Shown piece after piece: positions 1,544 through 22,052 of a stretch of DNA of 23,387 nt. The stretch is from the IMG/VR virus record IMGVR_UViG_3300032006_000090, positions 1 to 23,387 of that record. One strand, given 5' to 3'. The position numbers and the translations under genes were made by a program. Positions within the stretch are counted from its first letter, which is position 1; each line of letters opens with the position of its first letter. A model generated the notes under the pieces. The model was not told the origin of the DNA and did no database searches. It saw only the letters and a list, made by a program, of their open reading frames with translations. This DNA is from a virus.

Positions 1544-3148
1544 ATGGCCATTCTGTTACTAGAACAGGCGAGGTTTCATCAGGCGAGGTCTTTCTATAGA
1601 GACATCTATAACGGCAATGATAAATTTTATCTTGCCGCCTCGCGTACTGAAACATGGACGGATGATACTGCGCCTGATACATCGGTAGATAATCGTGTCG
1701 ATGTGCAGAAGTTCAGAGACAAGATACTTTTTGTAAAAAGAGTACAGTCTGCTGATACGGCTATGTTAGCTCGTAGGATTGATTGGGACTCTACAGGTAA
1801 TACTGTATATGATAGGTATGATGATGCCTATACGGCAACCAATAAAGCAAATTCTGGAGCTATATCATTACAAACTTCAAACTTTTATGTGTTAACAGAT
1901 GCATTTAATGTTTATAAGTGTATTGATAATAACGGTAATGCGAAAAGTACTTCAAAACCAGATAGTACTGGTACAGAAATATTCACAACAGCGGATGGTT
2001 ATAAGTGGAAGTTCTTATTTCAAGTAGGTGCTTCTGATAGAACTAAATTCCTTTCTACTTCATATATGCCAGTTAGAAAGGTATCTGGTGCTGGTCAACC
2101 ATCTTTTGATGTTAATGGTGAATTAAATAGTATTAATGTTAGTGCTGGGGGAAGTGGATATACTTCCGTTCCTACTGTCACAATTAATGGTGATGGAACT
2201 GGTGCTACAGCTAGTGCTGCTCTTACAGGTAGTGCGGTATCTAGTATAACTATTGATACTGCTGGTTCTGGATATACATTTGCAGATGTAGTAATAACAG
2301 GTGGCGGAGGTGCTAACGCGAAAGCAGATGCTGTTCTTGGTAGTACAGATACCCCCTCATTACAAACAAATGTTGAGGGTACTGCTGTTAAAGGTACTAT
2401 AGATAATATAATAGTAACTAATCAAGGTACAGATTATACTTCTGGTGATGTAACTCTCACCATTACAGGTGATGGACAAGGCGCAACTTGTGCTGCTGTG
2501 GTAAATACAAATGGTAATATTACAGGAGTTACCATAACAAATCCAGGCTCTGGATATACGACTGCATCTATTACTGTTACACAGGCATCTGGTGGTGGTA
2601 TTAATGCTTCTTTTAGGTGTATAATTGCACCTCTTGATGGACATGGGGCTCATCCGCAAAAGGAATTATTTTGTAAAAGGGTAGGAGTGACAGTATCCTT
2701 TGACAATGATTCTAGAGATTTGATTACAGGAAACGATTATAGACAAGTAGGTTTGATGAAAAACATAACTAAATATGGGTTAGATACTTTATTCAGCGAT
2801 GCAACTGGTTCTCCTCATTTCGTTATAGGTATAAGTGACCCAAATAATTATGGAGCGGATGATATATTAGAAGCAACAAGCGGAGGTAATTTTACAGTAG
2901 CACAACTAAGAGACACCACAGGAAATGGCACGGACGATAGTGTCTATTTACAAGAAAATACTTCTGGTATAGGTTCTTCAGACACAATTACAAATTTAAC
3001 AAAAGGTCTCTCTTCTTTACCTATAAATAGTCTTACAAATCCAGAAATCGATATTGATTCTGGAGACATAGTTTACTTTGATAATAGAAAACCTATTACT
3101 AGGGAAGAGGGTCAAGTAGAGACAGTAAAAATAATATTTACTTTCTAA
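1544..3148 (+). CDS. 8: Baseplate wedge subunit gp8-like protein with inserted GSGYT repeats
   Basis: The ends match T4 gp8. The N-terminal part has the x-F-Y-x-x-I-Y-N-G-x-D-K-x-Y-L pattern and the motif MLARRIDWDST (residues 74-84), comparable to the IPRRDWGDT stretch of T4 gp8. FNVYKCIDNNGN (121-132) and DGYKWKFLF (151-159) follow, and the C-terminus GDIVYFDNRKPI...IIFTF closely parallels GEMIYMENRPPI...ILFTF of T4 gp8. T4 gp8 is 334 residues; this one is 534. The extra length is mainly a glycine-rich insert at about residues 195-355 holding four GSGYT/GTDYT-type repeats (203, 241, 294, 335). Gp8 is a wedge protein of the contractile-tail baseplate. It starts with ATG behind AAGGAG, 23 bases after the previous stop and 11 bases before the next gene. 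Confidence 0.87.
   Translation: MAILLLEQARFHQARSFYRDIYNGNDKFYLAASRTETWTDDTAPDTSVDNRVDVQKFRDKILFVKRVQSADTAMLARRIDWDSTGNTVYDRYDDAYTATNKANSGAISLQTSNFYVLTDAFNVYKCIDNNGNAKSTSKPDSTGTEIFTTADGYKWKFLFQVGASDRTKFLSTSYMPVRKVSGAGQPSFDVNGELNSINVSAGGSGYTSVPTVTINGDGTGATASAALTGSAVSSITIDTAGSGYTFADVVITGGGGANAKADAVLGSTDTPSLQTNVEGTAVKGTIDNIIVTNQGTDYTSGDVTLTITGDGQGATCAAVVNTNGNITGVTITNPGSGYTTASITVTQASGGGINASFRCIIAPLDGHGAHPQKELFCKRVGVTVSFDNDSRDLITGNDYRQVGLMKNITKYGLDTLFSDATGSPHFVIGISDPNNYGADDILEATSGGNFTVAQLRDTTGNGTDDSVYLQENTSGIGSSDTITNLTKGLSSLPINSLTNPEIDIDSGDIVYFDNRKPITREEGQVETVKIIFTF
2127..2608 (+). repeat. GSGYT beta-repeat insert in gp8
   Basis: Encodes residues about 195-355 of gp8, with repeating I-x-V-x-x-x-G-S-G-Y-T-x-x-P-x-V-x-I units followed by GDG-x-GA-x-A. 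Related units appear in the giant downstream protein near residues 1811 and 2200, so the module is shared between neighbouring genes. Confidence 0.6.
3022..3029 (+). promoter_or_regulatory. Possible late promoter inside gp8 gene (TATAAATA)
   Basis: Exact TATAAATA, followed by GTC as at 10420. It lies in the 3' end of the gp8 gene, 131 bases before the ATG of the 2365-residue gene. The octamer also encodes I-N in frame, so coincidence with coding sequence is possible. Confidence 0.35.
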
Positions 3149-14313: not shown

Positions 14314-14924
14314 AAACAATAGAATTAATTAACCCAGAGTTAATAGAAATACTTGATAGGTGGATGGATTTCTATGATAAAAATTGTCCACCATCTTTAC
14401 CTATGGATGAACGAAGGTTTGGTGATAGGGACATGGATTACTATTGTTCAGAAGAATATCTTAGAGAAGTTCAAGCAAAAGGTGAAGACCATAAAGGCCC
14501 ACCAGAGTACGCAAAGGTATGTGATTTTCATTTGACACATGGTGTACCGAAAGAAGTTAGAAGAGAGTCTATGAAAACTTGTGCTGAGTTATCCGCGTGG
14601 TTGTGTGCTAAGTTCAATGCAGTACATGTTTACTATCCTGCTGGTGGTTTCATGTCGTGGCATAATAACTGGGATTGTCCCGGCTACAACATTTTATTAT
14701 CTTATAGTAATGCCTGCGGATTCTTTAAGCATTTAGATGAAGATGGGGATGTTGTGACTATCAATGACCCGATTGGGTGGAGTTGTAAAATAGGATATTA
14801 TGGTGGTAAAGACGAAACTCCATACTGGCATACTGCTGGAAGTCGAGGCCCGCGTCAAACATTTGGATTTGTTATCCCAGACGAAAGTCTATGGGAAGAA
14901 ATGATAGAGGATATATCTTGTTAA
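14310..14924 (+). CDS. Probable 2OG-Fe(II) oxygenase-like (cupin-fold) protein, 204 aa
   Basis: ATG 14310 overlaps the upstream TGA (ATGA) and is preferred over a TTG at 14283 lying inside the mutase gene. The double-stranded-helix part runs from about residue 104: VYYPAGGFMSWHNNWD with H118, N120 and D122 as metal-ligand candidates, then PGYNILLSYS, GWSCKIGYYG and PYWHTAGSRGPRQTFGFVI with distal H174 and R182. This H...H...R arrangement on beta strands is that of 2-oxoglutarate/Fe(II) oxygenases, and the W-H-x-N-x-D-x-P-G block recurs in marine T4-like phages. The first motif is H-x-N-x-D rather than a clean H-x-D, so activity is uncertain. It is the last plus-strand gene of the cassette, and its stop overlaps the stop of the convergent minus-strand operon. 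Confidence 0.55.
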   Translation: MKTIELINPELIEILDRWMDFYDKNCPPSLPMDERRFGDRDMDYYCSEEYLREVQAKGEDHKGPPEYAKVCDFHLTHGVPKEVRRESMKTCAELSAWLCAKFNAVHVYYPAGGFMSWHNNWDCPGYNILLSYSNACGFFKHLDEDGDVVTINDPIGWSCKIGYYGGKDETPYWHTAGSRGPRQTFGFVIPDESLWEEMIEDISC

Positions 14925-15604
14925 AAGAACCCTTCCCTTTGACCTATGACCATAAATCTATCAAACTCCTTCTTACCATCCCAAGAATAATATATTTGTT
15001 GTTTGGTTCCTTCATATCCGCACTCTTCTATTCCTATCTGTTCTTTTAGTGCCTCTATTGAGTTGACACAATTGATACCATACATCTCTTCAACAACATT
15101 TGAGTTCTGCATCGCGTAGACGGCATTAGGATTCTTACCTACTAGTTCTGTTAGGGGATACATTTGTTCGGTGTGAATACAGATTACTACATCGACATCT
15201 ATCTTGTTTAGATTCTCAAACTCAAATGGTATATCTAAGTTCCAATGGCGAATGTTTACAAATTTCTCTTGAGCATAATATTTGTGAAATGATTTGGAAA
15301 GATTGATACTCTCTTCATCCATGTCCACTAAATGAATTTGTGCAACATCTAAGTTTTCACATAGTAGCGGAACCATAGGAAGACCTAACCAAGAATTAAG
15401 AACTAATATTCTAAGATTCCCTTGTTTAGTATAATATTCTTCCAAATATTCTTTCAGTTCTTCAACCAACCAGATTGAAGCATCCATATTATTTTCTTGT
15501 AGAGATTGCCTAAAATCCACAAGTTTGTGAGGCATTTTGTTTTCTATAACATGTAATGCTTCACCCCAGTATTTAAAGTTATTTAAAAAATTAAAATTTA
15601 ACAT
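14921..15604 (-). CDS. Class I methyltransferase-like protein, 227 aa
   Basis: I chose ATG 15604, which overlaps the upstream gene by 14 bases and has GGAAAGG ahead of it; an ATG at 15640 would add 12 residues and a 50-base overlap. A Rossmann-like core is visible: strand 1 LRILVLNSWLGLPMVPLL (about 64-81), acidic end of strand 2 HLVDMDEESINLS (91-103), IRHWNLDIP (118-126) and strand 4 VDVVICIHTEQMYP (137-150). These match motifs I, II, III and IV of SAM-dependent methyltransferases. The glycine-rich loop is divergent (N-S-W-L-G-L-P instead of G-C-G-x-G), as in related marine phage proteins, so SAM use is probable but not certain. It is the last gene of the minus-strand operon. In this context it could methylate a sugar or a fibre protein. 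Confidence 0.6.
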   Translation of the reverse strand: MLNFNFLNNFKYWGEALHVIENKMPHKLVDFRQSLQENNMDASIWLVEELKEYLEEYYTKQGNLRILVLNSWLGLPMVPLLCENLDVAQIHLVDMDEESINLSKSFHKYYAQEKFVNIRHWNLDIPFEFENLNKIDVDVVICIHTEQMYPLTELVGKNPNAVYAMQNSNVVEEMYGINCVNSIEALKEQIGIEECGYEGTKQQIYYSWDGKKEFDRFMVIGQREGFF

Positions 15605-16265
15605 CTTCACCTTTCCCCATTGAGTCAAAAATACAAACATAAGGTAGTTCGCGGTATGTGTGTTTATCTATATCGTGTGGGAAGATATAGCCTTGGTTAA
15701 AACTATATACCCAACCTATAGGAAACAATTTGATTTTGGTTATTCTTCTGTTATAAAAGAAGTTGTCAAGACCACGATAGTACCATAGTATTTGTTTCTG
15801 ATATTTATTAAAGTATTCTGTAATCTCTTCTGTGTTTAAGTTATCATTCCACCTCAGAACCGAAGAGTTTAGATCTGTATATTTATGTGGAATGTGTCTA
15901 GTGTTTTTGAATTGAGTTTCTAAATCGTGCCAGTATGTCTTTACGAAACAGAGACAGTCCTCTGGGTCATAGTTTGCGATAGGAGTTATATCTTTCTGAA
16001 TGATAGTATCAATATCAAAGAACATCTTTTCACCTTTTTGTGTGACGATGTTACTGTCAAAAAGATACATCTTGTTCCACCACTTCACTAATTTGTTTCC
16101 GCCTGGCAACGCGAGTGGTGTAATGTTCTTATCCAATCCTTTTGGATTTTCTGTCAGGCAAAAGAAATCAAAATCCTCGTTGTAGAATTCCTTACATGCC
16201 TTGTACACATTATTGACATGTTGATGATTATATTTGTCACCCCATTTTACTGTGTAGATATTCAA
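15591..16265 (-). CDS. Glycosyltransferase-like protein, KWGxKY family, 224 aa, TTG start
   Basis: The start codon is TTG at 16265. No in-frame ATG exists until residue 66, the TTG sits 6 bases after GAGGGA, and TTGA overlaps the upstream stop as in the rest of this operon. The opening (L)NIYTVKWGDKYNHQHVNNVY is shared with three other genes of the operon. The DxD metal motif is MFFDIDTIIQKDI with D84/D86. A block SSVLRWNDN (about 133-141) and YYRGLDNFFYNRR (about 162-174) supply the conserved downstream Asp. WVYSFNQG (about 185-192) parallels WVYSYNRG in the fusion protein. The architecture is a compact GT-A fold with no membrane segment. Donor and acceptor are unknown. It is followed by the methyltransferase-like gene with a 14-base overlap. 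Confidence 0.72.
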   Translation of the reverse strand: MNIYTVKWGDKYNHQHVNNVYKACKEFYNEDFDFFCLTENPKGLDKNITPLALPGGNKLVKWWNKMYLFDSNIVTQKGEKMFFDIDTIIQKDITPIANYDPEDCLCFVKTYWHDLETQFKNTRHIPHKYTDLNSSVLRWNDNLNTEEITEYFNKYQKQILWYYRGLDNFFYNRRITKIKLFPIGWVYSFNQGYIFPHDIDKHTYRELPYVCIFDSMGKGEDVKF

Positions 16266-16888
16266 AATGGTTCCCTCATATAAACTACATTACCAGACGC
16301 GGTAATCCTTTCTCCGTTTGAAGTATAAAAAGGGTAAACCATGTGTGGAAGTTTTGCATCAAAGAAAATCATTTTACCCACGAACCCCTTGTCAACATTT
16401 ATTGCTAGTTCTTCTGGTACACCCATTGGTGAGTTCATTACAAAACAAAGTCTCGATGTCTTTGGGTCTTTCTTTTCTGGGAAGAATTTATCTTCTTCTT
16501 CTAAGTCATATGGAACATTGATAAAAATTACAAATGAGAACAACCCGCCATGATTATGCATGGGATTGAATTCATGTTTCTTTTGATAGTTAATCCATAC
16601 ACTTTCCAGACCAATCGGTAGCAACGGATGACTAGTATCCTTTTGTGTCTTCATGTACCGTTGTACTTCTTGTCTATAGAAGTGACTCATAATATCTTCT
16701 TTGACGGTCTCTGGCATATCTTCTATTCTTATTTGTCTTTCTAGATGTCCTGCTAGATTGTAATTGTTTGAAGTCTCGCCTACAAACTTTCTATAATAAT
16801 CCAAAGTATCCAAAGATACTTCTCCTGTCCAGATACAATTATGTTTTGATATCTGTTCTTCGGCTATAAACCAATTTGGACTCATCAT
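16262..16888 (-). CDS. 2OG-Fe(II) oxygenase (PF13759-like), 208 aa
   Basis: ATG 16888 overlaps the TAA of the 52-residue gene (TAATG); the TTG at 16894 lies inside that gene and was rejected. The oxygenase signature is WINYQKKHEFNPMHNHGG (about 98-115) with H111/H113, then LFSFVIFINVP. The distal part is VGKMIFFDAKLPHMVYPF with H182 and GERITASGNV with R194. This N-P-x-H-x-H-G-x-x-S-x-V-x-x-x-x-V-P ... H-x-V-x-P-F ... R-I-x-x-S-x-N layout is that of the phage 2OG-Fe(II) oxygenases common in T4-like cyanophages. Such enzymes hydroxylate a substrate using 2-oxoglutarate and oxygen; the substrate of these phage versions is generally unknown. It is unrelated in sequence to the oxygenase-like protein at 14310. 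In this cassette a sugar or a structural protein is a reasonable target. Confidence 0.75.
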   Translation of the reverse strand: MMSPNWFIAEEQISKHNCIWTGEVSLDTLDYYRKFVGETSNNYNLAGHLERQIRIEDMPETVKEDIMSHFYRQEVQRYMKTQKDTSHPLLPIGLESVWINYQKKHEFNPMHNHGGLFSFVIFINVPYDLEEEDKFFPEKKDPKTSRLCFVMNSPMGVPEELAINVDKGFVGKMIFFDAKLPHMVYPFYTSNGERITASGNVVYMREPF

Positions 16889-17046
16889 TACCAATGTCTT
16901 AATACCCCCGATATAATAAAGAAACAGGTGAAGAAGTTTACAAGTACTACTACTGTTCTAAACAAGGCAATTATATCAGCCTCGTGTGAATCATCGGATG
17001 CTTTCTCTCCTAGAGACATGCACCACAGTTTCCATATTTTTTTCAT
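16888..17046 (-). CDS. Small single-pass membrane protein, 52 aa
   Basis: Short gene found by translation of the gap between the oxygenase and the SGNH gene. ATG 17046 follows GAGGAG at ideal spacing; that site overlaps the TGA of the upstream gene. The protein starts MKKIWKLWCMSLGEKASDDS, has a short acidic/charged linker (HEADIIALFR), then one strongly hydrophobic segment (TVVVLVNFFTCFFIISGV, about 31-48) and ends R-H-W. The layout of a basic Trp-rich head, GEKA-x-D-D motif and one C-terminal membrane helix matches a small protein family I associate with T4-like marine phages. Its TAA overlaps the ATG of the oxygenase (TAATG). It may anchor something to the inner membrane; the function is unknown. 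Confidence 0.72.
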   Translation of the reverse strand: MKKIWKLWCMSLGEKASDDSHEADIIALFRTVVVLVNFFTCFFIISGVLRHW

Positions 17047-17054
17047 TATTCTCC

Positions 17055-17768
17055 TCATTTAAATCCGAATGGTAATATTACCTCGCGTGTGAATTGTTCA
17101 TGTTGTTCAGTTGATGGATGGTCTGCTGTTCCTTCACAACCATCACACCATTCATACATACCCATAATGGGTAAAAATTTATCCCAGTTAACTAAATCCT
17201 TCAAGTGTTCTAATTCTTTGTATCCTGCCATCAAATTATTTTCGTCTGGAAATACTGGGTCTTTCATCCAAGACATGAAGTATGGTATACCATATTTGTC
17301 TAAAAACCATTGCGTTCTTAAAATATGTTCTAGTGAACTAATCCACCCAAACATCTGTTCATGTAAATGTGCGTAATATACATCACTTTTTTCAGTCATC
17401 CAATGTGGATTAAGAATTTGCCAATGTTTACTTTCTGGAATAAACCCAGTTGGATTTTCAACCCACCCACTTACATTTTCAAACAATGGTTCTTCTGACC
17501 ACACTTCATGTCTATCTGTACCAGACCACATAATCCCAACTTTAATTTCTTCCCTTATTGGTGGAGCAAGTTCGTGACGACTCTTTAAATATTCTGCCAC
17601 CTCATATATGACACCTCTACTAATTAAACCATTTCCTTGTGACCCCATTGCTTTTGATATGAGAGTCGCACCATATTCTTCTGACAAATAGTTTGGCCAA
17701 GTCTTAATATGTTTTTTCTGATTTTGGTCGGTTAAACTGAAACTACATCCTGCTGTTATTATTATCAT
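17055..17768 (-). CDS. SGNH/GDSL-family hydrolase, 237 aa
   Basis: ATG 17768 overlaps the upstream TGA (ATGA) and puts strand 1 (MIIITAGCSFS) at the very N-terminus; a TTG at 17774 is less likely. Block I is GCSFS with S9 as the probable nucleophile. Block II is GSQGNGLISR (G43, N47). Block III is IMWSGTDR, standing in for the G-x-N-D block. Block V is ADHPSTEQHEQF near the C-terminus with D216/H217. This order is that of SGNH hydrolases, which cleave or transfer acyl groups, often acetyl esters on sugars. About 50 residues in the middle (90-140) are extra and Trp-rich. It lies between a glycosyltransferase gene and a small membrane protein gene. Removal or transfer of O-acetyl groups on the glycan made by the cassette is plausible but not shown. 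Confidence 0.72.
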   Translation of the reverse strand: MIIITAGCSFSLTDQNQKKHIKTWPNYLSEEYGATLISKAMGSQGNGLISRGVIYEVAEYLKSRHELAPPIREEIKVGIMWSGTDRHEVWSEEPLFENVSGWVENPTGFIPESKHWQILNPHWMTEKSDVYYAHLHEQMFGWISSLEHILRTQWFLDKYGIPYFMSWMKDPVFPDENNLMAGYKELEHLKDLVNWDKFLPIMGMYEWCDGCEGTADHPSTEQHEQFTREVILPFGFK

Positions 17769-18577
17769 CTCCAATGCTCCAATAGTTGTGGGTCTGCAAG
17801 GTCATCTTGTTTTGTGTGTCCCCTACTTTCATCTTCAAATGGTAGTAAGTCAATGTTAAATACACAGAGTATACAATTGGGTCTGTATATTCCTACATTT
17901 AAATCATCCTCATCCCAAGACCGCCCGCGATTATATGAATATGCCATGTGTGATGGAAAGTAATCCCATAGTTTAGCACCATACTCACCCCATCTCCATG
18001 AGTGGTAGTTATCTGTTCCATCTGTATATGTGAACCATATCTTTTCTTGATTCTCTAACACATCTTCCCAGATAGGTTCACATTGGTCATCACTCCATAC
18101 TTGACAACTTCCATTTGTATACGCACCATGAGCTAGTTTAAACTGTCTAGTCTGCATGGGTTTTGGGTCTTGCCACCAAGACCGCATTTTAGTTGGTTGT
18201 TCTGTATTGTAAGTTAGAAGTGGTGTAATATCATTCTGTATAATTACATCCAAATCAAAGAAGATGAAGCGTCCTGTCGGCTTATCTGGGCCGAAATTGT
18301 GAGTATTAAAAACGAAAGTTTTAGGCCTGTCCCAACAACGAGCCATACCGTACTTAAACTCGTCAGCGCCGAACCAGTATTTAGGATGGATGGTAGGGAT
18401 ATCGGGAAATGGTATAACCTTAATATCTGGTAATAGTCCCTTATCATTGTCGGTATAACAGTAGAAATGAAAATCCATTGTCGAAGGTGTATTACGCTTA
18501 GACATGCTATAAAGACGGTTAACAAAGTGCGGGCCATATTTTTCTCCCCATTTACTACAAACTACATTAACTCGCAT
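17765..18577 (-). CDS. Glycosyltransferase-like protein, KWGxKY family, 270 aa
   Basis: ATG 18577 follows GTGGAG at good spacing and overlaps the end of the fusion gene by 11 bases; a GTG 12 bases further upstream is possible but unneeded. The opening MRVNVVCSKWGEKYGPHFVN matches the other transferases of this operon. The DxD motif is RFIFFDLDVIIQNDI with D108/D110. HPKYWFGADEF (about 64-74) corresponds to HPRHWFGQENF in the fusion protein, and AYSYNRGR (about 211-218) to VYSYNRGR. This gene and the N-terminus of the fusion are therefore the closest pair and probably arose by duplication. The protein should be soluble GT-A. Its stop is coupled to the SGNH hydrolase start. Confidence 0.75.
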   Translation of the reverse strand: MRVNVVCSKWGEKYGPHFVNRLYSMSKRNTPSTMDFHFYCYTDNDKGLLPDIKVIPFPDIPTIHPKYWFGADEFKYGMARCWDRPKTFVFNTHNFGPDKPTGRFIFFDLDVIIQNDITPLLTYNTEQPTKMRSWWQDPKPMQTRQFKLAHGAYTNGSCQVWSDDQCEPIWEDVLENQEKIWFTYTDGTDNYHSWRWGEYGAKLWDYFPSHMAYSYNRGRSWDEDDLNVGIYRPNCILCVFNIDLLPFEDESRGHTKQDDLADPQLLEHWR

Positions 18578-21083
18578 GGCAATCTCCACAATTTCTGGTA
18601 CAAACGCTGAGGGGTTTCCTCTTCAAGTGTTGACTTATATTTTCAAAGTCATGGTTATAAATTATCTCACCGATATTAAATTTCGTTGCATCATTATACT
18701 TGAAATTGTATGTATAGTCAATAGGATGATACGGAAATAGTTTGTGTTCCATTACATCTCTAGCAATGTACGCACATGGGAAAAGGTTGCCTTGCGAATT
18801 CACATAAAAATATTCACTTTTCCTCGCGTCACACCATACTGGTTCCTTCTCTTTCATCTTAGGTTTCTTGGTTCGTACTTCCTCATCTTTCTTAAACCGT
18901 TTCAATGTTTCCAGACTTACTGGAATATCACTAGCAATACTATCATTTACCTTTATTTCATTCTCGGTTGGTTGTGTAGGAAGTACATGTTCAACCCTAT
19001 CAACAAAAGGTAGGTCTTTTATATATGCCTTGAATGTCTGTACGGTGACTGTGCAGCCTAATTTTTCTTTAAAATACCGACAAATGGACTCAATTTCGTC
19101 ACAGTTTGTCGGGTCTGTGATTTCACACATAAATGTAACCCATTGTAACTTAAAGTTTTCAACTACGGTCTTGAGAGAATCTAGTGTATGTTCTTTTCCA
19201 TTGACAAAAATATCATTAAATTCATTACCTGTATCATTTTGTTTCGTAGATAGTTGTATTAATGCACCTTCTGGATTACCATCATCATATAGTCCTGTGT
19301 ATAAGTCACTATATTGTTCTCCATGCATTTGAAAATACTTGACAAGAGTGTCATTATCTTTTACACTATCTTGATTTATAATAGATATGAGTTCTTGTTT
19401 GGGCATGATGTTGTATAATCTTTCAAATACTTTCTCATAATCCTCTTTGTAGAATAGTTCTTTTAGATTTTGCAAATAGTATTTCTTGTATAGGGATTGT
19501 ACATCCTCAGTTGATGCATCCCAAAATACTCTTTGCATCCCATGTTCTTTAATGTTATCCATAACATCTTTTTTAATACTTGGTAGTGTGTTCTTATCCC
19601 ACAGTCTTTTGTACAACGCGAAACATTGTAGGAAACTTATGTTCCAGAAATATCTAACGGGCCCTAGTTCTTTCGCTTCTTCAAACGCGGTTAAGTGAGA
19701 CTTGTATATGTACCTTTGTTTGTACAAGTCATATATCTCATCCGCATCTTTGTTCCAATATAAGGACTCATCACCCTGTAATAATACAGGGTCATCTGGA
19801 TAGTCAGCGAGAAACTTTTTATGCATTGAAATCATATCACCAGAGTCATATAGTTCCTTTATAATATCTTTGTGGTGCGGTTCTATTTGTCGTATAAAGA
19901 TAAGGTCAGATATCTCTCTTTCCAATTCTGGTACATGTACCTTCACTTCAGAAATTGTACCTTTGAAATATTCATCCAATTCTGGGAAGTCCTTTATCAT
20001 TTTTTCTGATAAAGATTGTAAATCATTTGTTTCAATAAGTTCTTTTATATCTGATATTGTCTCTTTGTCCATATAGTTTTCTTGTAGCATACTATCTGTT
20101 AAAGATTCAAATCCAATCCACTCGCGTAATGTTTCAAACTCTTTTGAATATTGTTCCCAATCTTGTTTCAATTGGGGTAAGTCTTTGAGGAATTTTTCTT
20201 CTAGTGTATCGTAGTCCTTGGTACGCAATAGCTGAGATATCTTATTTGTGTGTTTGTTTTTATCAAAAAAGTTATCTGGAAACTTGGGTAACCATAGTCT
20301 TTCAAATTCTGTTTTGCCATGCCAATGTATGAGTAGATTATAATCTCTCAATTCATGTGGTTTTAAATTGTTTTTATTTTTCCCACCAACCGATGCTTCA
20401 AATATACAAAACTTTGAATTTTCTCTGTACAGGTGTTGCGTGACATCATTAGGATGTTGTCTCCCTCTATTATAGGAGTATACCCATTCACTTGGTAGGA
20501 ACGACCAATAGTTATCGCCTACTGCTTGGTGTTCCCTGTATGGGTAGTAGTTGTCGGTTCCTTTCCAAAAGGTTTTAAACACGGTGTCCTTGTGTTTCAT
20601 TACATCGTTGTAAATCTTTTCCCCTTGGTCAGTACACCACAACATGACACTAGAGTTATATAATGTGCCACGCATATCTGTAAATCTTCTATCGTTGAGA
20701 ACATTTGGATTTTCCCAATTAGAATAAATCATATGTGGAGTTTTTGATAATTCAAATATGTCATCTATATTGTTTTGAATAATAACATCCAAGTCTAGAT
20801 AACAGAATGGGCCTTTGGTTTTTAACCAATGGTGAGAATTGAGAACAAGAAACTTAGCTCTATCCCAACAGAAGTTTTCTTGACCAAACCAATGCCGTGG
20901 ATGGAGAGGGTCTACATTTGGAATAGACCTAATCTTAATATCCTTGTGGATTCCTTCTGGTTCGTCTGTGTAGCATATGAACTTAAACCTCTTGGTATAG
21001 TTCTGCTGAACCATTTTGTATAGATTGTTTACATATTCTGGAGAGTACTTATTGCCCCATTTCATGCAAAGAAAATGCATCAT
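18567..21083 (-). CDS. Fusion: glycosyltransferase + helical repeats + radical-SAM/SPASM-like C-terminus, 838 aa
   Basis: A continuous 838-codon frame. Residues 1-265 are a KWGxKY-family transferase with DxD D97/D99 (CYLDLDVIIQNNI), HPRHWFGQENF and VYSYNRGR. Residues about 280-575 are charged helical repeats. Three units (DYDTLEEKFLKDLPQL, NDLQSLSEKMIKDFPEL, GDMISMHKKFLADYPD) are spaced by about 61 residues, followed by L-Y-K-x repeats near 453, 490 and 531. Residues about 605-690 (ALIQLSTKQ, FNDIFVNGKEHTLDSLKTVV, VTFMCEITDPTNCDEIESIC) look like the second half of a radical SAM barrel. The C-terminus has C751-x13-G-x4-C770, the hallmark of SPASM/twitch domains, then C828-x3-C832-x2-C835. No CxxxCxxC cluster loop precedes the barrel-like part. 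ATG 21083 overlaps the upstream gene by 35 bases. The fusion looks genuine; the catalytic role of the C-terminus is uncertain. Confidence 0.68.
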   Translation of the reverse strand: MMHFLCMKWGNKYSPEYVNNLYKMVQQNYTKRFKFICYTDEPEGIHKDIKIRSIPNVDPLHPRHWFGQENFCWDRAKFLVLNSHHWLKTKGPFCYLDLDVIIQNNIDDIFELSKTPHMIYSNWENPNVLNDRRFTDMRGTLYNSSVMLWCTDQGEKIYNDVMKHKDTVFKTFWKGTDNYYPYREHQAVGDNYWSFLPSEWVYSYNRGRQHPNDVTQHLYRENSKFCIFEASVGGKNKNNLKPHELRDYNLLIHWHGKTEFERLWLPKFPDNFFDKNKHTNKISQLLRTKDYDTLEEKFLKDLPQLKQDWEQYSKEFETLREWIGFESLTDSMLQENYMDKETISDIKELIETNDLQSLSEKMIKDFPELDEYFKGTISEVKVHVPELEREISDLIFIRQIEPHHKDIIKELYDSGDMISMHKKFLADYPDDPVLLQGDESLYWNKDADEIYDLYKQRYIYKSHLTAFEEAKELGPVRYFWNISFLQCFALYKRLWDKNTLPSIKKDVMDNIKEHGMQRVFWDASTEDVQSLYKKYYLQNLKELFYKEDYEKVFERLYNIMPKQELISIINQDSVKDNDTLVKYFQMHGEQYSDLYTGLYDDGNPEGALIQLSTKQNDTGNEFNDIFVNGKEHTLDSLKTVVENFKLQWVTFMCEITDPTNCDEIESICRYFKEKLGCTVTVQTFKAYIKDLPFVDRVEHVLPTQPTENEIKVNDSIASDIPVSLETLKRFKKDEEVRTKKPKMKEKEPVWCDARKSEYFYVNSQGNLFPCAYIARDVMEHKLFPYHPIDYTYNFKYNDATKFNIGEIIYNHDFENISQHLKRKPLSVCTRNCGDCHAS

Positions 21084-21699
21084 AATATTTTTGTCTCAAA
21101 TTGTAATTGACTTCATTTTGTCCATTTAAAAGAACAATTGGATAATCTGGTTTTATTTGGTGACCTCTTGGTGAAGTATCTGTTTCCATATCTACCCCAG
21201 CAAGAAAAGAATATATCAACCTTTTGGGAAATGTTCTTTTGAAAAACTTCCCATCATATAAAAAATTATCATCCTTACCATCATATTTATGCAAGTTATA
21301 ATCAAAGTTTTCTAAAAATGCTTTCGTTATATGCGAGGCACTTGCACCTGTCCACCCCATAACACTAGAGTTCCATTCACCGCCAAAGTTTTTCCAATAG
21401 GTTCTACATATGATTGGTTCATCATTAATGTGTTCCCATATCTTTTCAAGGTCACCTTGGACTATTACATCCAAGTCTAAATATAAAGTCTTTCCACCAA
21501 AGTCTTGTTCGAGGAGTAAAACTTTTTCCCAATTGCCTAATCCAGTAGACATTTGAGTTTTTATTCCTTGTTCTAATCCGTCTGTATTATCTGTACGACA
21601 CCAGAACTCATCACATTGATATTTACACATATTATAAATAGTGTTTACATCATTAGAAGAGTATTTGTTTCCGTATTTTAGTGTAACAATTGTTCTCAT
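21049..21699 (-). CDS. Glycosyltransferase-like protein, K-Y-G-x-K-Y variant, 216 aa; first gene of minus operon
   Basis: I chose ATG 21699 because the protein then starts MRTIVTLKYGNKYSSNDVNT, aligned with the other family members; a TTG at 21723 would run into the divergent plus-strand gene. DxD is TLYLDLDVIVQGDL with D75/D77. NSSVMGWTG (about 110-118) matches NSSVMLWCT in the fusion protein. DGKDDNFLYDG (about 139-149) provides the downstream acidic block, and RLIYSFLAG (about 159-167) replaces WVYSYNRG. It is the most compact and divergent member of the family. The Trp of K-W-G is replaced by Tyr. Only 17 bases separate its ATG from the ATG of the plus-strand gene at 21717, so the operon promoter must lie inside that neighbour. 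Confidence 0.72.
   Translation of the reverse strand: MRTIVTLKYGNKYSSNDVNTIYNMCKYQCDEFWCRTDNTDGLEQGIKTQMSTGLGNWEKVLLLEQDFGGKTLYLDLDVIVQGDLEKIWEHINDEPIICRTYWKNFGGEWNSSVMGWTGASASHITKAFLENFDYNLHKYDGKDDNFLYDGKFFKRTFPKRLIYSFLAGVDMETDTSPRGHQIKPDYPIVLLNGQNEVNYNLRQKYYDAFSLHEMGQ
21633..21640 (+). promoter_or_regulatory. T4-type late promoter inside the opposing gene (TATAAATA)
   Basis: Exact TATAAATA followed by GTG on the plus strand, 76 bases before the ATG at 21717. It lies inside the minus-strand glycosyltransferase gene, because the intergenic gap is only 17 bases. It is the obvious late promoter for the virion genes from 21717 onwards. The octamer coincides with the conserved V-N-x-I-Y codons of the opposing gene, so a chance match is possible but less likely given its position. 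Confidence 0.55.
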
Positions 21700-21716
21700 A
21701 ATTAAAAGGTAACCCC

Positions 21717-22052
21717 ATGGCAAAAAAAGTAATTAAAAATATAACGATAGACCAAGGTTCTACTTTTAGTGAAACCCTAACTGTAACTACAGATGGGTCA
21801 ACCGCTAAGAACCTTACAGGCTATACAACAACATCACAGTTTAGAAAAAGCTATGACAGTACTACTTATACAAGTTTTACAACCGCCCAAGTTGACGCTA
21901 CTGGTGTTATAACTTTATCTCTAACTGCGACACAAACAACCGCGTTGAAAGCTGGTAGATATGTTTATGATGTAGAAATTGCAAATTCTCCAGAAGTATT
22001 GAGGGTGCAAGAGGGTATTATAACAGTAACACCACAAGTAACTAAAGCTTAA
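21717..22052 (+). CDS. Small beta-rich virion protein, 111 aa
   Basis: ATG 21717 behind AAAAGG. The sequence (IKNITIDQGSTFSETLTV, NLTGYTTTSQFRKSYDST, LKAGRYVYDVEI, VLRVQEGIITVTP) follows a pattern I know from about 110-residue proteins in T4-like marine phages, of the form 'x-I-D-Q-G-x-x-F-x ... L-T-G-Y-x-x-x-x-x-x-R-K ... L-x-A-G-R-Y-V-Y-D-V ... R-V-x-E-G-x-x-x-V-T-P'. It should form an Ig-like or BppU-N-like beta sandwich used in virion appendages. No enzyme motif or membrane segment. It restarts the late virion module after the minus-strand island. The downstream 55-residue gene begins 9 bases after its stop. Confidence 0.72.
   Translation: MAKKVIKNITIDQGSTFSETLTVTTDGSTAKNLTGYTTTSQFRKSYDSTTYTSFTTAQVDATGVITLSLTATQTTALKAGRYVYDVEIANSPEVLRVQEGIITVTPQVTKA

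Follow-up and report, generated by a model that had tools for sequence, protein, structure and literature searches.

A phage glycosyltransferase fused to helical repeats and to a radical SAM/SPASM-derived tail that lacks the radical SAM cluster site

The fusion gene and its relatives

A 23,387-nucleotide stretch of DNA from a T4-like marine phage (IMG/VR record IMGVR_UViG_3300032006_000090, positions 1 to 23,387, hereafter the window) encodes an 838-residue protein which joins, in a single open reading frame (ORF), a predicted glycosyltransferase (GT), a series of helical repeats and a tail descended from radical SAM/SPASM enzymes of phages. The parts taken singly are of known kinds; their combination, in which the radical SAM (RS) site is lost and the auxiliary one retained, is described nowhere in the libraries and papers searched. 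The gene and its parts, with the evidence for each, are the following.

18567..21083, minus strand: whole fusion gene, 838 residues; architecture shared by dozens of contigs in IMG/VR
20289..21083, minus strand: GT-A, GT8-like glycosyltransferase, residues 1-265 (PHROG 1962, Foldseek, VIA, motif columns; predicted)
19314..20288, minus strand: helical repeats, residues 266-590, variable in copy number and absent in relative L156 (AlphaFold, self-comparison, length classes)
18846..19298, minus strand: incomplete radical SAM barrel lacking the RS-cluster cysteines, residues 596-746, with beta1-beta3 and perhaps beta4 (HHalign, VIA, columns)
18570..18845, minus strand: SPASM/twitch domain with invariant cysteines, residues 747-838 (Pfam SPASM, HHalign, columns)

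An earlier note, made from the sequence of the window, had described this ORF and the order of its parts, and both are borne out. The frame opens with a double ATG at 21083, and the plus strand over 18567-21083 is riddled with stop codons. A scan of IMG/VR combining patterns and tblastn recovered 65 loci with relatives from many metagenomes, with best-segment identities to the fusion of 39-100% and with many matches spanning residues 1-838. A scan with a C-terminal alignment yielded 119 relatives, from which 80 loci were kept. GT, repeats and SPASM/twitch end stand in the same order in dozens of independent contigs, and all complete ORFs with the C-terminal domain also have the GT, except for a frameshifted pair in locus L042. 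The lengths fall into classes of 465 residues (L156), about 731-737, 807-808, 832-838 and 907-912, the value for L156 being counted from the shared MM start of an ORF that can also be read as 478. In comparisons with six close relatives, each of the four domains (GT, repeats, barrel remnant, SPASM part) had an omega between 0 and 0.05; all parts of the protein are under strong purifying selection.

A chimeric assembly, or a frameshift uniting unrelated genes, finds a single point in its favour in L042, a relative whose frame breaks at about residue 626 to leave two ORFs that overlap. That split (L042 203-2940) falls right behind the remodelled cluster loop described below, and is either a sequencing error or real. 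Because independent contigs carry the same order of parts, at the identities given above, an artefact of assembly is ruled out; with omega at about 0.05 or lower throughout, the probability left to such an origin is negligible.

Among GenBank phages, only relatives of the GT part were found, and a pattern search of genome contigs returned no relative of the SPASM end and no cellular homologue. Searches of PDB sequences by phmmer and hmmsearch, with the fusion protein or a profile of its tail, gave no matches. Nothing relevant to a GT-SPASM fusion or to a named pseudo-radical-SAM protein appeared in the domain libraries and literature searched, a search outside which most subscription papers lie.

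A remnant radical SAM barrel in the tail

For comparison with the tail, intact phage radical SAM/SPASM proteins were gathered first from the genomes bearing the fusion and then widely. HHalign of residues 596-838 against 30 such proteins of marine phages gave a P of 1.2e-13 (Prob 98), and residues 596-700 alone matched the N-terminal part of the intact relatives at 1.2e-7, while control profiles of the GT and of the repeats remained below a Prob of 3%. The tail is derived from radical SAM/SPASM enzymes of phages, and this homology is well supported. The radical SAM proteins with an N-terminal FCxLPWxH motif found in fusion-bearing genomes were considered as parents and set aside, as their SPASM-like end is N-terminal. 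A family with C-terminal SPASM domains (L181, L179/L180, L211, L228) fits.

Structural comparison pointed the same way. Single-sequence AlphaFold was uninformative (predicted local distance difference test, pLDDT, of 35), whereas a run on an alignment of 28 sequences was confident over about 601-700 and poor at the SPASM end. SuiB was the top Foldseek match of the tail, and VIA-align over about residues 600-813 returned SuiB (Z 12.7), PqqE (11.5), BtrN (11.2) and CteB (10.8). The earlier note would have been refuted by a fold of residues 590-838 unrelated to radical SAM/SPASM structures; the fold is related to them (Z 11-13). Its suggestion that a transferase acquired the tail end of a radical SAM enzyme is upheld.

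The portion of the barrel that persists is the reverse of what had been supposed, namely that the tail resembles only the second half of the radical SAM fold. Structural alignments begin near the start of the known enzymes (residue 600 falls on residue 1 of BtrN and on residue 13 of PqqE), and HHalign pairs residues 614-684 with the segment of the intact relatives running from just behind the RS-cluster loop through beta3; by eye, for example, LDSLKTVVENFKLQWVTFMCEITDPTNCDEIESICRYFKE lies under LDETKRILNGVASGLKFVKLCGNWGDPMGCDEIADICEWF of L179. For the middle third of the intact relatives HHalign found no counterpart in the tail: its alignment resumes at the SPASM domain, and some 75 residues of the later barrel are missing. 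The alignment starts and the HHalign segment therefore indicate that beta1-beta3, and perhaps a short beta4, were kept, and that the cluster loop was remodelled or deleted.

The absence of a CxxxCxxC loop ahead of the SPASM part, already remarked in the earlier note, extends to the relatives: none of 28 diverse sequences has a cysteine in columns 615 (Q/R/T/I/S/H), 619 (G/K/N/D/S/E) or 622 (F/Y). With ungapped start offsets, Q615, G619 and F622 fall on the cluster ligands C16, C20 and C23 of BtrN (PMC9012708) and C28, C32 and C35 of PqqE (PMC5715301), while the global mode of HHalign deletes the nine-residue cluster loop instead. Under either alignment, an RS cluster could not be accommodated in the usual manner. 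At the place of the loop, N616, D617, T/S618, N623 and D624 are nearly invariant, and this N-D-T/S...N-D motif suggests a new role for the former cluster loop. Other features of radical SAM enzymes have changed as well: the G-rich SAM-binding turn behind beta2, CGN(x)GDP in the phage relatives, reads CEITDP in the fusion, and the T-N-G behind beta3 has become QTF or QTY.

The putative auxiliary cluster site

Both cysteine signatures noted previously, C-x13-G-x4-C and a terminal C-x3-C-x2-C, are present, as C751/C770 and as C828-x3-C832-x2-C835, and all five residues are cysteine in 28 of 28 sequences. The twitch ligand pattern C-x9-15-G-x4-C...C (motif from PMC6231123) is matched, although its glycine is not invariant, and four of the tail cysteines are placed like the ligands of the twitch class and of the intact relatives from phages. 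HHalign of residues 700-838 against the SPASM part of the intact relatives gave 9.8e-13. The Pfam SPASM profile scored the window protein below its cut-off of 21.5 bits (16.6-18.4 bits, E 0.0094) and the relative in genome G006, in a frame that includes neighbouring genes, above it (22.2 bits).

In the twitch enzyme BtrN, four cysteines bind one [4Fe-4S] cluster (PMC6231123), and the C16A/C20A/C23A variant retains this auxiliary cluster (PMC9012708). RS mutants of PqqE likewise retain their auxiliary clusters, and multiple RS/AuxII mutants still hold a cluster (PMC5715301). Because these variants keep an auxiliary cluster after loss of the RS cluster, binding of an iron-sulphur (Fe-S) cluster by the fusion tail is plausible by analogy.

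Glycosyltransferase domain and helical repeats

The GT-A transferase with a DxD motif at D97/D99 proposed for the N-terminus is upheld by motif and structure alike. D97-L-D99 (YLDLDV) is invariant wherever covered, as are N143-S-S and G175-x-D-N, and H253-W-x-G is near-invariant. The glycosyltransferase family PHROG 1962 matches 23 of the 28 members, with an E of 0.0007 for the fusion of the window and 2.8e-5 for the best relative. Foldseek matched this part to glycogenin, and VIA-align of residues 1-260 to LARGE1, UGGT and GTA/GTB (Z 6.5-7.5). The fusion N-terminus is a predicted soluble GT8-like glycosyltransferase with its GT motifs intact. The idea that the unread 400-residue N-terminal part of PHROG 21308 is this same GT was not supported, the fusion N-terminus having no match to that profile.

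Behind the GT, repeat units begin at about residues 282, 346 and 408, with a fourth, degenerate unit at about 539. In self-comparison, the three highest scores (63, 52 and 49) exceed the maximum of 37 reached over 60 shuffles; the repeats predicted previously are therefore real, and their spacing of 62-64 residues is close to, if not exactly, the 61-residue period claimed for them. A second and shorter repeat type, WNxxxxxxxxLYKR, follows the first units and recurs at 37-41 and 78 residues. The AlphaFold model is entirely helical to about residue 540 (pLDDT about 85-92) and less certain over 541-590 (about 57-69). In L156 the GT is joined directly to the C-terminal module with zero repeats, and the repeats are therefore an insert of variable copy number between two constant parts. 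They thus appear, from sequence comparison, to be a non-essential joint between GT and tail. A midpoint-rooted tree of the relatives does not separate gain of repeats from loss.

Comparison with known systems

The closest known counterparts of the tail are single radical SAM/SPASM proteins of marine phages (330-360 residues; PHROG 21308 and 1802; e.g. L228, L211, L181), with which it shares the cysteine pattern C-x18-C...C-x3-C-G, the order of strands and helices to beta3 and a GDP-type turn behind beta2. These proteins, however, keep CxxxCxxC and the full barrel, and have neither glycosyltransferase nor helical repeats. BtrN and other twitch enzymes (SpeY, SkfB) resemble the tail in the fold of 600-813 and in a single auxiliary set of four cysteine ligands (BtrN: PMC6231123), but BtrN has C16/C20/C23 and cleaves SAM, whereas the tail has no cysteine at those places. 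The peptide-modifying SPASM enzymes PqqE, SuiB and CteB, its top structural matches (Z 10.8-12.7), carry an RS cluster and two auxiliary clusters, while the tail holds only the first half of the seven-cysteine SPASM motif.

On the GT side, phage glycosyltransferases of GT8 and PHROG 1962, and glycogenin, share the GT-A fold match and the DxD motif with the fusion N-terminus; unlike the fusion, none of the GT matches found has a C-terminus derived from radical SAM. The region as a whole resembles the host-recognition cluster of pelagimyophages, in which T4-like marine myophages have tail-fibre genes together with several GT8 genes and with radical SAM cassettes (PMC7029224). A keyword search of that paper turned up no GT-radical SAM fusion.

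Operon and genomic surroundings

The fusion is the second gene of an antisense five-gene operon which sits between tail-fibre genes, and the adjacent genes overlap it at both ends. The other operon genes and two variable inserts are listed below.

21049..21723, minus strand: operon gene 1, GT-A glycosyltransferase, 35-nucleotide overlap with the fusion start (PHROG 1962 E 1.7e-7, GT8 weak)
17765..18589, minus strand: operon gene 3, GT-A paralogue of the fusion N-terminus, overlapping the fusion end (homologues match residues 3-254, E about 1e-52)
15591..16265, minus strand: operon gene 4, GT-A glycosyltransferase (PHROG 1962 E 2.4e-11; position conserved)
14921..15640, minus strand: operon gene 5, methyltransferase-like (weak methyltransferase Pfam matches below cut-off; position conserved)
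16262..16894, minus strand: variable insert, 2OG-Fe(II) oxygenase (PF13759 E 2.8e-8, PHROG 81 E 1.8e-23)
17055..17774, minus strand: variable insert, DUF6071 (PF19547 E 1.1e-8)

The operon thus holds three further GT-A paralogues. The order GT (21049), fusion, GT (17765), GT (15591), methyltransferase-like (14921) is kept in 16 covering relatives, L118 and L102 beginning inside or at the fusion; wherever the contig of a relative reaches far enough, gene 1 is found at its usual place. The oxygenase is found at this position in the closest relatives only, and the DUF6071 insert, among the compared loci, in L043 only. By eye, the DUF6071 protein looks like an SGNH/GDSL hydrolase (GCSFSLTD...). 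Gene 3 is 78-99% identical across relatives; it is 78-92% identical in those where the fusion reaches only 42-72%, and the fusion therefore evolves much faster than its operon partner. The window is from a T4-like marine phage: its protein at 1544-3148 is a baseplate wedge relative that shares about 33% identity with cyanophages.

Intact relatives of the tail occur, in cultured phages, within sugar or amino-sugar gene clusters. The genomes of relatives of the fusion (G001-G005, L173-L178) contain seven to nine radical SAM genes each, several of them clustered and mostly with the N-terminal FCxLPWxH SPASM-like end. L179 (about 676-1702) and L180 (about 860-1913) encode intact relatives as two overlapping ORFs, a barrel followed by a SPASM/twitch part with its own ATG, and the same arrangement recurs in Pelagibacter phage Mosig (genes 00084/00085; L292 2992-3958). 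In these three phages, either the twitch domain is made as a separate polypeptide or the two genes are joined by frameshifting. L181 (1449-3179) encodes another type of fusion: in one 582-residue frame, radical SAM/SPASM precedes what by eye resembles a short-chain dehydrogenase domain.

Discussion

The reading we favour, and hold to be somewhat probable, is that of an active glycosyltransferase combined with a pseudo-radical-SAM/twitch module for the binding of a partner or an acceptor. The tail would no longer generate radicals; it would fold around one auxiliary [4Fe-4S] (or [2Fe-2S]) cluster and act as a binding module, the former barrel and twitch pocket holding the acceptor, either a glycan or part of a phage protein in the form of a peptide. 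How far the protein reaches, and how much surface it offers for contacts, would depend on the repeats as a spacer of adjustable length or an interaction surface, while the GT domain would transfer a sugar from a nucleotide donor. The tail is probably a holding or recognition module rather than a radical enzyme. The target, which is the least certain part, may, with low confidence, be an acceptor made by the phage itself, for instance a protein of the tail fibre or a glycan that it bears. More speculatively, the lineage may have kept only the auxiliary cluster and a rebuilt cluster loop (the N-D-T/S...N-D motif) as a non-catalytic, redox- or iron-sensitive recognition domain that aims the GT at a phage-made target; this we consider unlikely.

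Several observations weigh against the favoured reading. Fe-S content and GT activity are predictions from sequence and model, and the SPASM part of the AlphaFold model has a pLDDT of about 30-70, so that the cluster site is argued from sequence. On the GT side, the glycogenin matches have E values above 0.01, and no match of Pfam Glyco_transf_8 is listed for the fusion's own N-terminus. Furthermore, the pelagimyophage study interprets the GTs of the host-recognition region as modifying the host O-chain and not as glycosylating the virion (PMC7029224).

This last interpretation underlies a different account of the same protein, in which the operon alters the host surface (lipopolysaccharide, LPS, or O-chain) and excludes competitor phages, with the pseudo-radical-SAM end docking a host glycan or enzyme. 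O-chain modification has been proposed for the GT8-rich host-recognition clusters of pelagimyophages (PMC7029224), the operon consists of GTs and a methyltransferase-like gene, and the intact relatives of the tail belong to sugar-biosynthesis clusters. Yet the operon lies beside tail-fibre genes in every covering relative, which a phage-made target fits at least equally well, and nothing at this locus ties it to host LPS; we regard this account as possible but tentative. A zinc site is rather doubtful. On that view, the twitch end became structural upon loss of the radical function and its five C-terminal cysteines bind zinc, which the four to five cysteines of C-x18-C...C-x3-C-x2-C are able to do, and an Fe-S redox partner is no longer needed once the RS cluster is gone. 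The tail nevertheless shares the pattern C-x13-G-x4-C...C with its intact radical SAM/SPASM relatives from phages, and twitch domains whose RS cluster has been mutated away keep their own cluster (PMC9012708, PMC5715301).

That the tail is still a radical enzyme, with an unusual cluster loop or an RS cluster borrowed from another phage radical SAM protein, is highly improbable. Non-standard cluster motifs do occur in other radical SAM families, and the genomes of the relatives hold many complete radical SAM genes. Against this, the barrel part has no third conserved set of cysteines (C653 is lost in 5 of the 28 sequences and C668 in 2), the SAM-binding turn is changed from CGNxGDP to CEITDP, and the barrel lacks its later strands.

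Conclusions

What auxiliary clusters do in SPASM/twitch enzymes is still debated, because they have nearly always been studied beside an active RS cluster. The fusion tail represents a natural removal of the RS cluster in which strong selection has kept the auxiliary ligands, and the protein could be expressed in pieces. Since its relatives range from zero to several repeats, they offer an existing series in which the role of the repeats can be probed. The fusion also offers a way into the functions of the numerous glycosyltransferases and radical SAM proteins that abundant ocean phages encode in their host-recognition region.

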